Shown: positions 32,341 through 61,908 of the stretch, piece after piece | Layout of the letters: the number at the start of each line of letters is the position of its first letter | How positions within the stretch are numbered: the first letter of the stretch is position 1 | Assembly: GCA_913058265.1 (NCBI GenBank) | Contig: CAJXPQ010000009.1 | Span: 1-64,000, forward strand | Source of the DNA: an uncultured Oligoflexia bacterium | Lineage (GTDB): Bacteria; Bdellovibrionota; Bacteriovoracia; Bacteriovoracales; Bacteriovoracaceae | Direction of reading: 5' to 3' | DNA: 64,000 nucleotides | The notes under the pieces: generated by a model | What the model was told of the DNA's origin: nothing | Databases searched by the model: none | What the model saw: the letters and a program-made list of their open reading frames with translations, nothing else | Translations under genes and position numbers: made by a program

Positions 32341-32467
32341 AATAATTATTATCACTAATAATATCCTTTAACGCAATTAGACTTTTCACAATGCTTCACA
32401 CAATTTAAGCTAAATCACTGAAAACATTAAAGTATGGAAATTGTGAACAAGATAAGGATGCTTGAAC

Positions 32468-34582
32468 ATGGCCGTTAAAGAGGTAAAGCGTAAAAAGACA
32501 CGAGTTAAAGAGGCCGAAATTGAGGCTAAAGACCAAAGGTGGCATTGTCGAAATAGAGTGACGCTTGTTTTTGGATCAAATGACGTTGAAGAACTTGATA
32601 CTTACACTTACACAGAGAATTCACTTGAATTTAAGACAGTGCAGTTTCATCAAGCTAAGTCTAAGGCGATCGAAGAAATCCTAGATAATTGTATTGATGA
32701 GTTTTATCGAGGGCATGTAACTGAGGTTACGACGAGACTCTCTGACGATGGAACTACTGTTACTATTGAAGACAACGGTATTGGATTTCCGCTTAATAAA
32801 GTCCCTATGGTTTATTCTGAATTTAGAACAGGATCAAAATTTAAGGATTTAGAAGTTGATTCTAAGGGCTATTTACATAGAACTTTAGGTCAAAATGGTC
32901 TAGGTGCTGCCGCTACTTGTCTTACATCTGATATATTTAACGTCACGGTTAGACATTATAACTCTAAGAAAGAGCAAACCACCCAATTTATTGATGGTGC
33001 AAATAAAGTTAAAAAATCTAAACCTAAACCTTTTAAAGGTGCATCGGGTGTTAAGATTGAAATTAAACTAGCGAAAGAAGTTTATAAAAATATTAAAATT
33101 GATAAAGAATTACTTGAAAAGCGAATTATCGATCTTGCTTATAATAACCCTGGTCTTAAGTTTGTTTTTAATGGAACAACTTATCACTACACGAAAGGTT
33201 TGTATGAGCTTGCGCAAAGGGTTAGCCCTGACCACGCACAACTTCTAGGTGATGATAAATTTACTTTTGAAGGTGTCAATCTTAAGAAGAAAAAATACAA
33301 AGCTCTTATTGATATCAATGTTTCAATTGTTCTTGATAAACAAAGTGAAGAGCGTGAAAAATATATTTCTTTCGTTAACTCTACCCCTACATTTGACGGT
33401 GGATTTCATCACGACAGAATCAAGCGACTATTCATCAATATTTTAAAAGATAAACTTGAGCGAGAGGCTAAGAAGGCCAAGGTTGCAGTCGTAGATAATG
33501 ATATTTTGGGTGGAATGACATTTGTTATTGGTGTAATTATGCCAAACCCTAGGTTTGAATCACAGACTAAAAGAAAGCTGGTTAAAGATGGTGAGCTAGA
33601 TAAAGTTATAGAGTCATTTATGGATAAGTATATGACCAAATTTATTCGAAATAATAAAGAATATCTTGAACATGTTATCGAAAGAGCTAAGTCGAGAGTA
33701 AAGTTTGCTGAACTTAAAGACGCCTCTAAGATGGGTAAAAAGCAAAAGAAACAAAGAGTTGAAAAGCTACTTGATGCCAACGAAAGAAAAGATAGAACCC
33801 AGTGTACTTTATTTATTTGTGAAGGGGACTCGGCAATTGGCGGTCTAAGATCTGCTCGTAACAAACTTTATCAAGGCGGGATTGCACTTAAAGGGAAACC
33901 AATGAATGTAACTCAAGCAACGATTAAAGATGTTTTAAATAATCAAGAATTTTCAGATATTATGGCCTCAATTGGTCTTATCATTGGTCAGCCTGCTGAA
34001 ATTGATAGTTTACGCTATTCAAAAATTGTTTTTCTTGCGGATTCGGATGTAGATGGTGGGCATATTAATACTTTGCTTACAAATTTCTTTTTCACTTATT
34101 GGCCTGAGCTCTTTACGAATGGGTCAATCCAGATTGCTAAAGCACCACTTTTTGAAATTATCACCGATAAAGATCCGATTTATGCAGAAAGCGAAGACGA
34201 ATTGGAGAGTATCAAAAAGAAGCAAACTGTTAAGATTAAAGAAATTCAAAGAAACAAAGGTCTCGGTGAAATGAGCCCTGAAGCATTTAAGTATGTGCTT
34301 AGCCGAGAAGAGTATACAAAGATTACTATTGATCATTTAGATGAAGCCAAACATATGCTTCATACATGTTTCGGTAAAGATACTCAGCTTAGGAAAGATT
34401 TATTACTTGATTCTGAGACCTCTGTCTCTTCAACTAAGAAATCAAAGTCTAGGCCAGTGAAGAAGGTTGCAAAGAAGAAAGTTGCAAAGAAAGTTGCAAA
34501 GAAAGTTGCCAAGAAAGCTCCTAAGAAAGTTGCAAAAAAGAAAGTTGCAAAAAAAACTAAAAAGAAAACAGCGAGAAAATAG
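32468..34582 (+). CDS. parE: Type IIA topoisomerase B subunit (ParE/GyrB-like) with lysine-rich tail
   Basis: About 704 residues from ATG 32468 (AAGGA nine bases upstream; a TTG at 32462 is too close). The GHKL ATPase motifs are EEILDNCIDEFYRG, EDNGIGFP and GQNGLGAAAT. The TOPRIM domain has CEGDSAIGGLRSARN and ADSDVDGGH. It hydrolyses ATP and drives DNA passage with the A subunit encoded immediately downstream. After about residue 655 comes a tail of roughly 45 residues made of KKVAKK-type repeats, like histone H1 or Hc1 tails and unusual for this family. Confidence 0.92.
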   Translation: MAVKEVKRKKTRVKEAEIEAKDQRWHCRNRVTLVFGSNDVEELDTYTYTENSLEFKTVQFHQAKSKAIEEILDNCIDEFYRGHVTEVTTRLSDDGTTVTIEDNGIGFPLNKVPMVYSEFRTGSKFKDLEVDSKGYLHRTLGQNGLGAAATCLTSDIFNVTVRHYNSKKEQTTQFIDGANKVKKSKPKPFKGASGVKIEIKLAKEVYKNIKIDKELLEKRIIDLAYNNPGLKFVFNGTTYHYTKGLYELAQRVSPDHAQLLGDDKFTFEGVNLKKKKYKALIDINVSIVLDKQSEEREKYISFVNSTPTFDGGFHHDRIKRLFINILKDKLEREAKKAKVAVVDNDILGGMTFVIGVIMPNPRFESQTKRKLVKDGELDKVIESFMDKYMTKFIRNNKEYLEHVIERAKSRVKFAELKDASKMGKKQKKQRVEKLLDANERKDRTQCTLFICEGDSAIGGLRSARNKLYQGGIALKGKPMNVTQATIKDVLNNQEFSDIMASIGLIIGQPAEIDSLRYSKIVFLADSDVDGGHINTLLTNFFFTYWPELFTNGSIQIAKAPLFEIITDKDPIYAESEDELESIKKKQTVKIKEIQRNKGLGEMSPEAFKYVLSREEYTKITIDHLDEAKHMLHTCFGKDTQLRKDLLLDSETSVSSTKKSKSRPVKKVAKKKVAKKVAKKVAKKAPKKVAKKKVAKKTKKKTARK
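34459..34579 (+). repeat. In-frame repeats encoding the lysine-alanine tail
   Basis: Imperfect copies of AAGAAAGTTGCA and AAGAAGAAAGTTGCA encode KKVA and KKKVA units at the 3' end of parE. Near-identical units can expand or shrink by slippage without changing frame. Confidence 0.75.
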
Positions 34583-36016
34583 ATGACTGAAGCGATTTAC
34601 CTACATTCAATGGAAGCCGTGCCTTTAGAGGCGATAGTTAAAGATGAGTATAGAACATATCAGATTTATACGCTTATGGATCGTGCGATTCCCTATTTGG
34701 GAGATGGTTTAAAGCCAAGTCAAAGACGTATTCTTTTTACACTATTTAAAAATCAATCCAAAGGTTTAATGAAAGTTACTGGACTAACTGGTCTCGTACT
34801 TACATTACACCCACACGGCCCTGCATCGGTTGAAAGTTCAATCGTAAATTTGGCACAAGATTATACGTTTTCAAATAACTATCCTCTTATTGATAAGAAG
34901 GGTTATTTTGGTGAGCGAATGGAAACCCAAGCGGCGGCGGGAAGATATATTGAATGTAAATTAGGACTAGTTGCTAAGGCGGTTCTGTTTGATGATATGA
35001 ATCAAGTTGTCATGGTTCCAAATTATGATGAAAAGGTAATGGAGCCAGTAGGATTACTGCCAAAATTACCTATCATGCTTTTAAACGGAGCTGAGGGAAT
35101 TGGTACAGGATTCTCATCTGTTATTCCAAGCTTTAACCACAGAGACATAATTAAATCTATGATCCAATATATTCAAACCGGATCAGCTAGAAAGCTTAAG
35201 CCATGGGTGAGAAGTTATTCTGAGCAAATCGAAGTTGAAAAATCTGGTAAAGTTCATTTTCGTATGGCCTTTAAAGAAATAAATGACAAGATTTATATCG
35301 TTGAATTACCTCGAGGTTATGATGCGAAAAAGACTTATAAGTTTTTGAATAAACATATTGATAATGATTTCATTAAAGATTATATCGATTCTAGTGTTGA
35401 TAATGAAGTTATGATTGAACTTATGTTCAAGCGTGGTCAACAGCCTAAACTTTCAGAAGTTGAAAGAGTTATGGGAACTTCAGCCTCTCTTTCCCCGAAT
35501 TACACACTTATATCTGAACGGGGTGTTAAGATATTTGATAAGCCCGAAGAGATTATTGAGATCTTCTCTGAGCAAAGAATTAAAATTGTTAAAAGAAGAT
35601 ACGAACTTCTCATTATTGATGCTAAAGAGCGTCTGGCCAAGAATAATGAAATCATTCGATTCATTAAAGAGAAGCATTACGCACAGGCCGAAAAGAAAGC
35701 AAACAGAAAAGCTTATGTTGAATATCTATCAAAAAAGAAATTTAAGTACTCTGAGTATTTAGCTGATATGGCCATCTACCGTATGACTAAGGAAGAAGTT
35801 GAAAAACGTAACCTTATGATTAAAGATGATAAAGCTATGATTAAGCAGTGGGAAGTTATCTTTGGTTCTAATGCTCGAATTAAGAAAGAACTCATTAAAG
35901 AGCTTGAAAAAGTTGGAGCAGATTTAGACTCAATCATGAAGGCTAAAGAAGATGCCAAAAAAGCTGTTTATAGAAAAATTTCTAAGACGTCTAAAAAGAA
36001 GAAAACTAAGAAATAA
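34583..36016 (+). CDS. parC: Type IIA topoisomerase A subunit, short form (ParC-like)
   Basis: 477 residues. The breakage-reunion domain has LKPSQRRILFT, LHPHGPASVESSI and the catalytic Arg121-Tyr122 in AAGRYIECKLG. The family's C-terminal beta-pinwheel is absent: typical ParC/GyrA have 740-870 residues. In its place is a helical end and a lysine-rich tail (SKTSKKKKTKK). HPHGP replaces the usual HPHGD. It follows parE with no gap. The pair resembles the short second topoisomerase pair of chlamydiae and T4-type enzymes in architecture. Topoisomerase IV-like decatenation is the likely role. Confidence 0.85.
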   Translation: MTEAIYLHSMEAVPLEAIVKDEYRTYQIYTLMDRAIPYLGDGLKPSQRRILFTLFKNQSKGLMKVTGLTGLVLTLHPHGPASVESSIVNLAQDYTFSNNYPLIDKKGYFGERMETQAAAGRYIECKLGLVAKAVLFDDMNQVVMVPNYDEKVMEPVGLLPKLPIMLLNGAEGIGTGFSSVIPSFNHRDIIKSMIQYIQTGSARKLKPWVRSYSEQIEVEKSGKVHFRMAFKEINDKIYIVELPRGYDAKKTYKFLNKHIDNDFIKDYIDSSVDNEVMIELMFKRGQQPKLSEVERVMGTSASLSPNYTLISERGVKIFDKPEEIIEIFSEQRIKIVKRRYELLIIDAKERLAKNNEIIRFIKEKHYAQAEKKANRKAYVEYLSKKKFKYSEYLADMAIYRMTKEEVEKRNLMIKDDKAMIKQWEVIFGSNARIKKELIKELEKVGADLDSIMKAKEDAKKAVYRKISKTSKKKKTKK

Positions 36017-60753: not shown

Positions 60754-61908
60754 CTAAATTAAACAAAGTTCTATAAAAAATGGAGACTTTAAATCTTTTG
60801 AATCTTTTGAATCTTTTGAATCTTTAGAGATATTAAATTTTGTGCTTTCAACTGTGAATAAATGTGCTTTTGTATTCAATGTAAAAAAATGATTGAATCC
60901 ATTATTCCACCTTATACCTTTATAGCTCGGAGGCACAACGCTTAGACAATGAAAATTCTTTACATAACCTTTAGTGAAAATATTCGAAATTAAAATGTTA
61001 AGGACATGATTTACATCTTTATCCGATAGTGTTGAAGATAGTGTAAGTGATGTTAGATGCAATGGTCTTAATTCTTCTTTTAGTTGTGGCGCTTCTTTTC
61101 TAAAGCATTTAATTATTGAGTAGTAAGTTTTTTGTAATGGCGAAAGATTTGGTATGATTATTTTTTTTAAATGATCAATTGATTGTAACTTTGTATACGC
61201 GACAATCTTAGAGTTCTTAATAACAACAACTTCCTTGCTGAAATTTGCTGCATTCCAATTGGCCTTACGATACATGTACTCTTTAGGGTAGTTAAGCCCT
61301 AAGTTTAATTTAGAGTGCTCATGATTCAAAAAATTTACTAATTCACTCTCATTAAATATAGTAGTCATTTTGATGTCAGGACTGACCTCTGTCCCTGAGA
61401 AATTGAATATATTGACCATATTGTATGATGCTCTTAAGTTATATGTGAACTCATTGCTGGGGTTATTTAGGGACGAGATTGCTCTTTTGTTCTGATCAAG
61501 GATATATGTATAACAAAGGGATACATCGCAAAATTCATCAATATTATTTAAGTTATCAATGAAGTCACGGTAATAATTTTTCCAGATTGCACTTGCTCTT
61601 TTTGTTGAAATACGTAAATCAGAAAGTAAGCATACCTTAACACATTTTCCCTCTAAGAAACGTTCATGTTTATTAATTACTGCTATACCTTCAATCTTCT
61701 GATCAGATGGAGAGCGAAGAAGTAAGACATAGACATCTGACAATTCCTGCTCGTAAAAGCTAAAAAAATTTGGTTTTCTATCGTAATATATACTATTACC
61801 ACTATTCTCCATCTTGGACTGACTATAAAAAGTTAGGATGCTTTTATTATCTCTTGATGAGGCTATGCTTATATCTTTAAAGTCTTTGATGAAGTTTGTA
61901 AGTTTCAT
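60754..61908 (-). CDS. GNAT-like acyltransferase-fold protein with SKD repeats
   Basis: 384 residues, cytoplasmic. Strand-helix patterns such as VYVLLLRSPSDQKIEGIAVI and GKCVKVCLLSDLRIS recall large, divergent GNAT-fold proteins. The identification is weak, since no clear acetyl-CoA loop is seen. Near the C terminus a DSKDSKDSKD stretch is encoded by a tandem 9-base repeat. It stands alone and is divergent from the membrane-protein gene at 61949. Confidence 0.45.
   Translation of the reverse strand: MKLTNFIKDFKDISIASSRDNKSILTFYSQSKMENSGNSIYYDRKPNFFSFYEQELSDVYVLLLRSPSDQKIEGIAVINKHERFLEGKCVKVCLLSDLRISTKRASAIWKNYYRDFIDNLNNIDEFCDVSLCYTYILDQNKRAISSLNNPSNEFTYNLRASYNMVNIFNFSGTEVSPDIKMTTIFNESELVNFLNHEHSKLNLGLNYPKEYMYRKANWNAANFSKEVVVIKNSKIVAYTKLQSIDHLKKIIIPNLSPLQKTYYSIIKCFRKEAPQLKEELRPLHLTSLTLSSTLSDKDVNHVLNILISNIFTKGYVKNFHCLSVVPPSYKGIRWNNGFNHFFTLNTKAHLFTVESTKFNISKDSKDSKDSKDLKSPFFIELCLI
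60792..60827. repeat. Four tandem 9-base repeats (AATCTTTTG)
   Basis: Three exact copies plus one final variant (AATCTTTAG) within the GNAT-like gene. Read on the minus strand they encode SKD units. The unit is a multiple of three, so copy-number change alters length and not frame. Confidence 0.85.

Follow-up and report, generated by a model that had tools for sequence, protein, structure and literature searches.

What kind of topoisomerase carries a long run of lysines at the end of its ATPase subunit, and what could such a run do there? The question is raised by a stretch of 64,000 nucleotides from an uncultured Oligoflexia bacterium, a marine relative of predatory bacteria (GenBank assembly GCA_913058265.1, contig CAJXPQ010000009.1, positions 1 to 64,000 of the forward strand; hereafter the window), in which a gene for the ATPase/TOPRIM subunit of a type IIA topoisomerase (B subunit, 32468..34582, +) ends in a lysine-rich tail and is directly followed by the gene for a DNA breakage-reunion subunit (A subunit, 34583..36016, +). 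The polycation is real and by analogy probably serves as a DNA tether, and the enzyme that bears it is more interesting than the tail itself.

The B frame (32462–34582, +) terminates in SETSVSSTKKSKSRPVKKVAKKKVAKKVAKKVAKKAPKKVAKKKVAKKTKKKTARK. Its tail (34412..34579, +; residues 651–706) contains 25 lysines and 2 arginines among 56 residues, giving a net charge of +26, and 12- and 15-base tandem repeats coding for KKVA(K) units, near-identical in DNA, were detected within it at 34459..34555 (+) with Tandem Repeats Finder (best score 100). When all stop-to-stop frames of at least 100 residues were compared, this was the most basic 45-residue stretch of the window (net +25, runner-up +15). The original prediction of a lysine tail on the B subunit was therefore confirmed, although the first tail residue is 651 (base 34412), slightly before the position 34440 given there. 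Its resemblance to histone-H1-like tails was also borne out, since it is of low complexity (Lys/Ala/Val), repeat-encoded and predicted to be disordered, the predicted local distance difference test (pLDDT) of the AlphaFold model being about 30 over residues 650–706. The last 56 residues of Escherichia coli ParE, of the same genome's GyrB and of the B subunit of Agrobacterium phage Atu_ph04 carry net charges of −5, −4 and −7, respectively.

B residues are numbered here on the 706-amino-acid frame (32462–34582, +), which opens with a TTG two codons upstream of the ATG at 32468. The ATG, which gives a protein of 704 amino acids, is the favoured start, because most relatives begin with MA(I/V)xxVKRKGK or a similar sequence and an AAGGA lies upstream of it. 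The earlier description of an ATPase and TOPRIM core was correct, as Pfam matched the GHKL ATPase domain (HATPase_c, E 4.7e-9; residues 69–174, 32666..32983, +), the transducer domain (DNA_gyraseB, E 6.7e-25; residues 261–417, 33242..33712, +), with QTK at 368–370, and the TOPRIM domain (Toprim, E 1.2e-9; residues 449–549, 33806..34108, +), with E454 and D527/D529/D531. These acidic residues, QTK, E72, N76, G106 and G108 were invariant in 26 of 26 aligned rows. In a fold search with the AlphaFold model of B (26-row alignment, mean pLDDT 78), the ATPase regions of topoisomerase II, phage enzymes, gyrase and topoisomerase IV matched about equally (Z 33.7–29.4 over 50 rows).

The A subunit has 477 amino acids and begins with an ATG immediately after the B stop codon. 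It covers the topoisomerase IIA A-subunit domain from end to end (PF00521 positions 1–431 of 432, E 4.1e-85; 34682..35905, +), and R121 and Y122 of its A-x-R-Y motif are invariant in 26 of 26 rows; by the GyrA motif we take Tyr122 (34946..34948, +) to be the catalytic tyrosine. The hallmarks of type IIA enzymes are thus all present, namely the GHKL ATPase, the transducer QTK, the TOPRIM E and DxD(xD), and the arginine before the catalytic tyrosine (26/26 rows). Since neither subunit varies at its catalytic residues in these rows, the gene pair should, to judge from its sequence, encode an active type IIA topoisomerase. At E <= 0.001 no Pfam family besides PF00521 was found in A: the chain stops at residue 477, after a short basic end, KISKTSKKKKTKK (35975..36013, +), with neither a C-terminal β-pinwheel nor a GyrA C-terminal domain with its GyrA-box detected by Pfam. 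The AlphaFold model of A (26-row alignment, mean pLDDT 72.6, N-terminal third poor) likewise has helices at its end and no pinwheel, and over residues 5–461 it matches the cores of topoisomerase II, gyrase and topoisomerase IV, the best match being to 8gcc (Z 25.5, root-mean-square deviation 3.9 Å over 430 residues). The top 12 rows of this fold search were eukaryotic topoisomerase II (Z 25.5–24.2) and the best gyrase or topoisomerase IV reached 23.9, a separation that is unclear when rows within 1 Z are counted as tied; the T4-type A chains 8ylu and 8yo3, found by sequence, were not among the 50 listed rows, an absence that means little. A frames were uniformly short, 465–493 amino acids from stop to stop in 33 of 33 including that of the window. 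At residues 80–85 of A, Ser82 and Glu84 were invariant, while the sites aligned by eye with what we take to be Ser83 and Asp87 of E. coli GyrA held Ala/Gln/Pro and Ser/Thr/Ala/Gln (26/26 rows), so the enzyme may be insensitive to fluoroquinolones.

Every NCBIfam cut-off listed was missed by both subunits. The best full-length match of A, to NF007209 (topoisomerase IV subunit A), scored 168 bits against a cut-off of 644, and the best model for B scored 299 against 740, with the parE models at 216–233 against 723–900; for comparison, E. coli ParC reached 1426 bits and the GyrA of the window's genome 1197 on their own models, and four phage A subunits 77–162 on their best ones. Another topoisomerase IV A model, NF007208, is only 479 positions long. 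Among solved structures, the profile of A matched eukaryotic topoisomerase II (170 bits), topoisomerase IV (151) and T4-type phage enzymes (146), and that of B matched GyrB (232), topoisomerase IV (211) and phage enzymes (204); B alone therefore leans toward gyrase. In a tree of 31 A subunits, in which ParC was represented by E. coli and Shinella, bacterial and archaeal GyrA, ParC and one Lactococcus phage formed one clade (100/99) with the window's enzyme family outside it, the remaining phages and the eukaryotes formed a second (99/96), with phage Atu_ph04 apart, and the third clade was the family (100/100), its stem 1.42 long. Approximately unbiased (AU) tests rejected a grouping of the family with these ParC rows (p-AU 4e-86) and with eukaryotes alone (p-AU 0.0018), while its union with phages plus eukaryotes was not rejected (p-AU 0.37).

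Of the candidate identities, canonical ParE/ParC was rejected for the ParC rows sampled by this test, the NCBIfam scores and the missing pinwheel; gyrase by the lack of a GyrA C-terminal domain and the presence of a separate, complete gyrase in the genome; and membership in eukaryotic topoisomerase II by the failed sister grouping and the division of B and A into two genes. The label "ParE-type" given to the B subunit before thus held for gene order and general fold and failed on the phylogeny of A. ParC of the Chlamydia and Borrelia types is short; because the ParC rows of the tree were those of E. coli and Shinella, and because the tree has long branches, the assignment of the enzyme to a separate deep type IIA lineage, a third lineage, is provisional. 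The place of the T4 topoisomerases has itself been called less certain, and Bdellovibrio is not mentioned in the portion of that work available to us (PMC8084294).

The window's genome holds a complete gyrase adjoining recF-like and dnaN-like frames (these two recognized by eye), and no further type IIA A- or B-like gene was found in it at E <= 0.001. We searched 368 genomes of the phylum with A, 129 of which belong to the window's family (Halobacteriovoraceae/Bacteriovoracaceae). A match of at least 270 bits was obtained in 114 of the 129, and in a 115th (G018) the gene was cut by a contig end; the 14 without a match were mostly incomplete assemblies, the exceptions being G111 (98% complete), G031 (91%) and G108 (90%). 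In the other 239 genomes the best match reached 111.5 bits, about what the gyrase of the family itself scores. Among the phylum genomes searched, the enzyme is therefore confined to the window's family, beside a normal gyrase. In one genome of another family (G056, C83:1971-5536) we observed a second pair of GyrB-like (678 amino acids) and GyrA-like (946 amino acids) frames, perhaps a separate topoisomerase IV.

The best 80 of 109 relatives were kept as loci for comparison, all of them close (at least 60% identity in the best segment). They are titled Halobacteriovoraceae, Bacteriovoracaceae, Bacteriovorax or Halobacteriovorax, or bear broader or neighbouring labels (Bdellovibrionales, Bdellovibrio sp., Oligoflexia, Deltaproteobacteria, Proteobacteria and, once, Epsilonproteobacteria), these labels being the depositors' and mostly those of metagenome bins. 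A viral origin was considered and rejected: when viral contigs were scanned with the A alignment, 20 stretches matched and none codes for a relative, and relatives in phage records were all below 60% identity, those listed that cover more than 200 residues being about 24–31% identical, so that no donor was found in viral or phage records. In plasmid records, the matches among the 25 of 169 that were listed were all at the GyrA/ParC level. A lysine tail of ParE or GyrB, or the Bacteriovorax/Halobacteriovorax form of the enzyme, is the subject of no paper found in the accessible part of the open-licence literature; the main text of a comparative genomics study of the phylum (PMC11656739) contains neither topoisomerase, gyrase, parE nor histone, and gyrA alone is treated in the available text of PMC12642874.

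B was reached in 76 of the 80 loci, the other four lacking it at a contig end. Two of these were dropped, one with unresolved bases at the end of B and a short frame (L102) and one with the B frame broken at 454 amino acids (L139), leaving 74 clean loci; both are still included in a 37/8/31-of-76 count of charge classes, in the B tree and in the count of C-terminal end motifs. We also compared 34 genomes, each standing for a different genus except in the case of the genus of the window, after exclusion of G011 (open contig end). Of the clean loci, 37 had a net charge of at least 10 after residue 650, 8 had one of 5–9 and 29 one below 5, and the corresponding numbers for the genomes were 20, 2 and 12, indicating that the tail is not required for the enzyme as such. 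The earlier statement that such proteins usually stop soon after the core is true of the three B-type subunits checked outside the lineage (E. coli ParE, the GyrB of the window's genome and the Atu_ph04 B subunit); within the bacterial family it is true in part, 37 clean loci having a strongly basic tail. Tail length ranged from 1 to 120 residues among the clean loci, and B lay about −7 to +44 bases from A in 74 of 74, an estimate for which the A start was read off the alignment. Strongly basic tails clustered on the B tree (as few changes in 0 of 500 shuffles). All three other genomes found of the window's genus are tailed (53–67 amino acids, net +21 to +28), so the tail, whose presence in independent assemblies had been proposed as a check, is no assembly artefact.

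The cores of B in relatives with and without a tail are 65–87% identical to that of the window. G018, for example, whose B is 83% identical, is truly tail-less and ends in DNEVKINLKSI; its A starts 9 bases after the B stop codon, and its seeming lack of A is due to the contig-end break. In a large clade with L083–L098, which includes loci labelled Bacteriovorax stolpii, a conserved, non-repetitive end of 24–32 residues in most rows (e.g. SEEIDVDLTNIIAGNKADKKKAAREARA), with the pattern S-x-x-I-D-V-D-L-x-N-I-I-A-G..., replaces the lysine tail, and another clade of the B tree stops at the core end. Some tails close with L-x-x-[MH]-[ILV]-[DEN]-Y or a near variant (e.g. LADMIDYLD, LVDHLEY). This acidic-hydrophobic end was found in 7 of 76 loci (L120, L125, L130, L138, L148, L150 and L151) and 2 of 35 genomes (G013 and G015), in two separate parts of the tree, and is absent from the window's tail; by analogy it could be the docking end of a DNA clamp. 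B. stolpii is a predator, and the four loci labelled with its name (L087, L093, L096 and L097) have no tail (net 0 or +1). A locus labelled Halobacteriovorax marinus (L121) is tailed (net +19), and both Bacteriovorax and H. marinus are names of predators in the available text of PMC12642874 and PMC5760749. Tail state thus does not separate predators from non-predators, and the link to a predatory life cycle suggested in the original prediction was not supported.

The KKxxKK module recurs elsewhere in the window's genome, with 85 exact sites coding for KK[VAIT][AT]KK as compared with 5 for the reversed pattern. Besides the B subunit, carriers of at least two sites were a SWIB/MDM2-domain protein with an N-terminal KKATKKVAKK array, likely a nucleoid protein (L193:2027-2422, C9:79026-79421, −), a NYN-domain protein, IF-2, a phasin-like protein (sub-threshold Pfam match, E 0.0076), array proteins on C7 and C17, a fragment at the end of C24 and an aldehyde dehydrogenase with two sites in an N-terminal KKATKK segment (L194:527-2053, −). 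In the C17 protein, of 355 amino acids (L198:1848-2912, C17:53847-54911, +), the KKVAKK array extends over more than 100 residues, and Pfam gave no hit at E <= 0.01. Ordinary enzymes, among them a fumarase with an N-terminal KKATKK (L195:1001-1954, −), also carry single sites, some of which may be due to chance. The genome's TopA is without a lysine tail. Across the 34 genomes, the charge of the B tail rose with the number of motif sites outside the tail (Spearman 0.60), the median count being 96 where the tail was net 10 or more (n=20) and 29 where it was below 5 (n=12); G+C content (GC) was rejected as the cause, since the partial correlation given locus GC was still 0.58. This link is no more than an association, since the starred branches provide just 3 pairs that are independent by phylogeny (sign test p = 1). 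Because the same module stands on other proteins and tail charge tracks site count elsewhere, the tail looks like one of a genome-wide suite and no one-off invention of B. Its H1-like composition and predicted disorder, together with the recurrence of the module on the SWIB-domain protein, IF-2 and the histone-like array proteins, make non-specific binding of polyanions likely. A 9-base tandem repeat, TTTGAATCT, also occurs in the window, in 4.2 copies at 60788–60825.

On balance, we favour the view that the tail is a disordered DNA tether that partly stands in for the missing pinwheel of an ATP-driven type IIA enzyme. A and B would presumably assemble into A2B2, fill the topoisomerase IV slot beside gyrase and, from what their sequences suggest, relax and decatenate DNA. 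A has no pinwheel, the domain that GyrA and ParC use to hold DNA next to the gate. The tail would be positioned near the DNA gate, because it begins at the end of the B core, the point at which B and A are fused in eukaryotic topoisomerase II. There, by analogy, the polycation would most likely bind DNA non-specifically, retain the enzyme between strand passages, favouring processivity, and raise the local concentration of second DNA segments. In Streptomyces, TopA deprived of its lysine repeats keeps its velocity and is sharply less processive, acidic residues beyond the repeats have been proposed to dock back and form a clamp, and HrdB, Ku and HupS bear similar repeats (PMC7398561). The disordered lysine-rich C-terminal domain of yeast topoisomerase II drives DNA condensation and shifts the product from knots to catenanes, according to the portion of PMC9674351 available, and DNA-binding proteins of prokaryotes are, as stated in the accessible part of PMC6821194, enriched in low-complexity regions rich in lysine.

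Several observations weigh against a tether. Weak tails or none at all (net charge below 5) are found in 29 of the 74 clean loci and in 12 of the 34 genomes, the strongly basic state requires 12 changes on the B tree, at least 8 of them forced by starred branches (L102 and L139 included), and A subunits of tail-less members show, by eye, no obvious compensating basic tail. KK segments stand on proteins without an expected DNA role, such as the aldehyde dehydrogenase and the fumarase, which weakens a chromosome-specific reading, and no activity data on the enzyme were found in the open-licence literature to the extent available. Finally, the near-identical DNA of the tail repeats fits recent slippage, which leads to the main rival: that the tail is a tolerated by-product of such slippage, genomes that accumulate KKxxKK-coding repeats receiving such segments on many proteins, without harm where the C-terminus is disordered. 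The excess of 85 sites over 5, the correlation of tail charge with motif count (0.60, or 0.58 given GC), the variation of tail length within the genus (53–67 amino acids) and the KK segments of metabolic enzymes are all in line with this explanation. We nevertheless consider it possible rather than probable, as the segments keep their frame and strong basicity despite turnover of sequence and length, the other carriers include plausible nucleoid or nucleic-acid proteins (SWIB, IF-2, NYN and the array proteins), and the correlation comes down to the 3 independent pairs mentioned above.

It is unlikely that the tail mainly binds another polyanion, such as polyphosphate or RNA, or is modified on its lysines, and so controls where and when the enzyme works instead of its affinity for DNA. 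The H1-like AlgP of Pseudomonas aeruginosa affects the spacing of polyphosphate granules (PMC9239181, text available in part), the phasin-like protein noted above has a similar tail, and the available text of PMC7398561 suggests that lysines in the Streptomyces TopA repeats are acetylated; against this, no pointer to polyphosphate or to a modifying enzyme was noticed at the locus, though neither was specifically searched for, and the topoisomerase tails described in PMC7398561 and PMC9674351 act on DNA. Less credible still, indeed very improbable, is an ordinary ParE/ParC topoisomerase IV that has drifted and lost the C-terminal domain of ParC. Gene order (B before A), a second enzyme beside gyrase, the general fold and the best A match to NF007209 would agree with it, but that match falls far short of its cut-off, as do all others listed, and the GyrA plus ParC clade (100/99) excludes the family, the tree with ParC (E. 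coli, Shinella) as its sister being rejected at p-AU 4e-86.

Keeping the tether as the preferred explanation, we also put forward, tentatively and as the less probable of our own proposals, that this third cellular type IIA lineage, neither gyrase nor topoisomerase IV, is the resident second topoisomerase of the Halobacteriovoraceae/Bacteriovoracaceae and has more than once acquired (or lost) a disordered polycation of the eukaryotic kind, on B and not on A; the conserved acidic-hydrophobic peptide of some tails could fold back and make a DNA clamp of the tail. Lysine-repeat tails have been associated with type I enzymes from GC-rich bacteria, and disordered ones with eukaryotic topoisomerase II; the present case combines a split bacterial type IIA enzyme, AT-rich genomes, a missing DNA-holding domain and a tail in some relatives only. 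This natural series with and without a tail lets the contribution of a polycation to a type II enzyme be asked directly. The core looks like a deep branch, of which no description was found in the literature searched, as far as it was accessible, and bears on the relations among gyrase, topoisomerase IV, phage and eukaryotic enzymes.

Compared with known systems, the enzyme resembles bacterial topoisomerase IV in being a second type IIA enzyme beside gyrase with A and B on separate genes, and differs from it in an A subunit that has no ParC pinwheel, scores far under the model cut-offs and stands outside the GyrA/ParC clade. With the T4-type phage topoisomerase II (gp39/gp60/gp52) it shares separate subunits and a short A without a C-terminal domain, at about 24–31% identity (best phage matches about 29–30%; A open frames of 429–544 amino acids in ten phages, one of which, Lactococcus phage 949, has its frame cut by the end of the phage DNA used), whereas none of three phage subunits checked has a basic tail and the family is not nested in the clade of phages and eukaryotes; a grouping with that clade was not rejected (p-AU 0.37). 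The actinobacterial TopA (PMC7398561) is similar in its H1-like lysine repeats at the C-terminus of a topoisomerase, in the recurrence of such repeats on several further DNA-binding proteins of its host, and in acidic residues past the repeats, matched here by the acidic-hydrophobic end in a minority. It is, in contrast, a type IA enzyme of GC-rich hosts in which the function of the repeats was shown, while here the enzyme is of type IIA and a function is what we infer; as the window has 35% GC, the GC-rich explanation for the TopA repeats fails here. Eukaryotic topoisomerase II (PMC9674351) has the same catalytic core fold, no β-pinwheel and a disordered basic extension, and provides the best solved-structure matches of A by sequence. 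It is nevertheless one fused chain as compared with two genes here, an exclusive grouping with it was rejected (p-AU 0.0018), and the window's tail is shorter, of purer lysine-alanine-valine composition, and ends B and not A.

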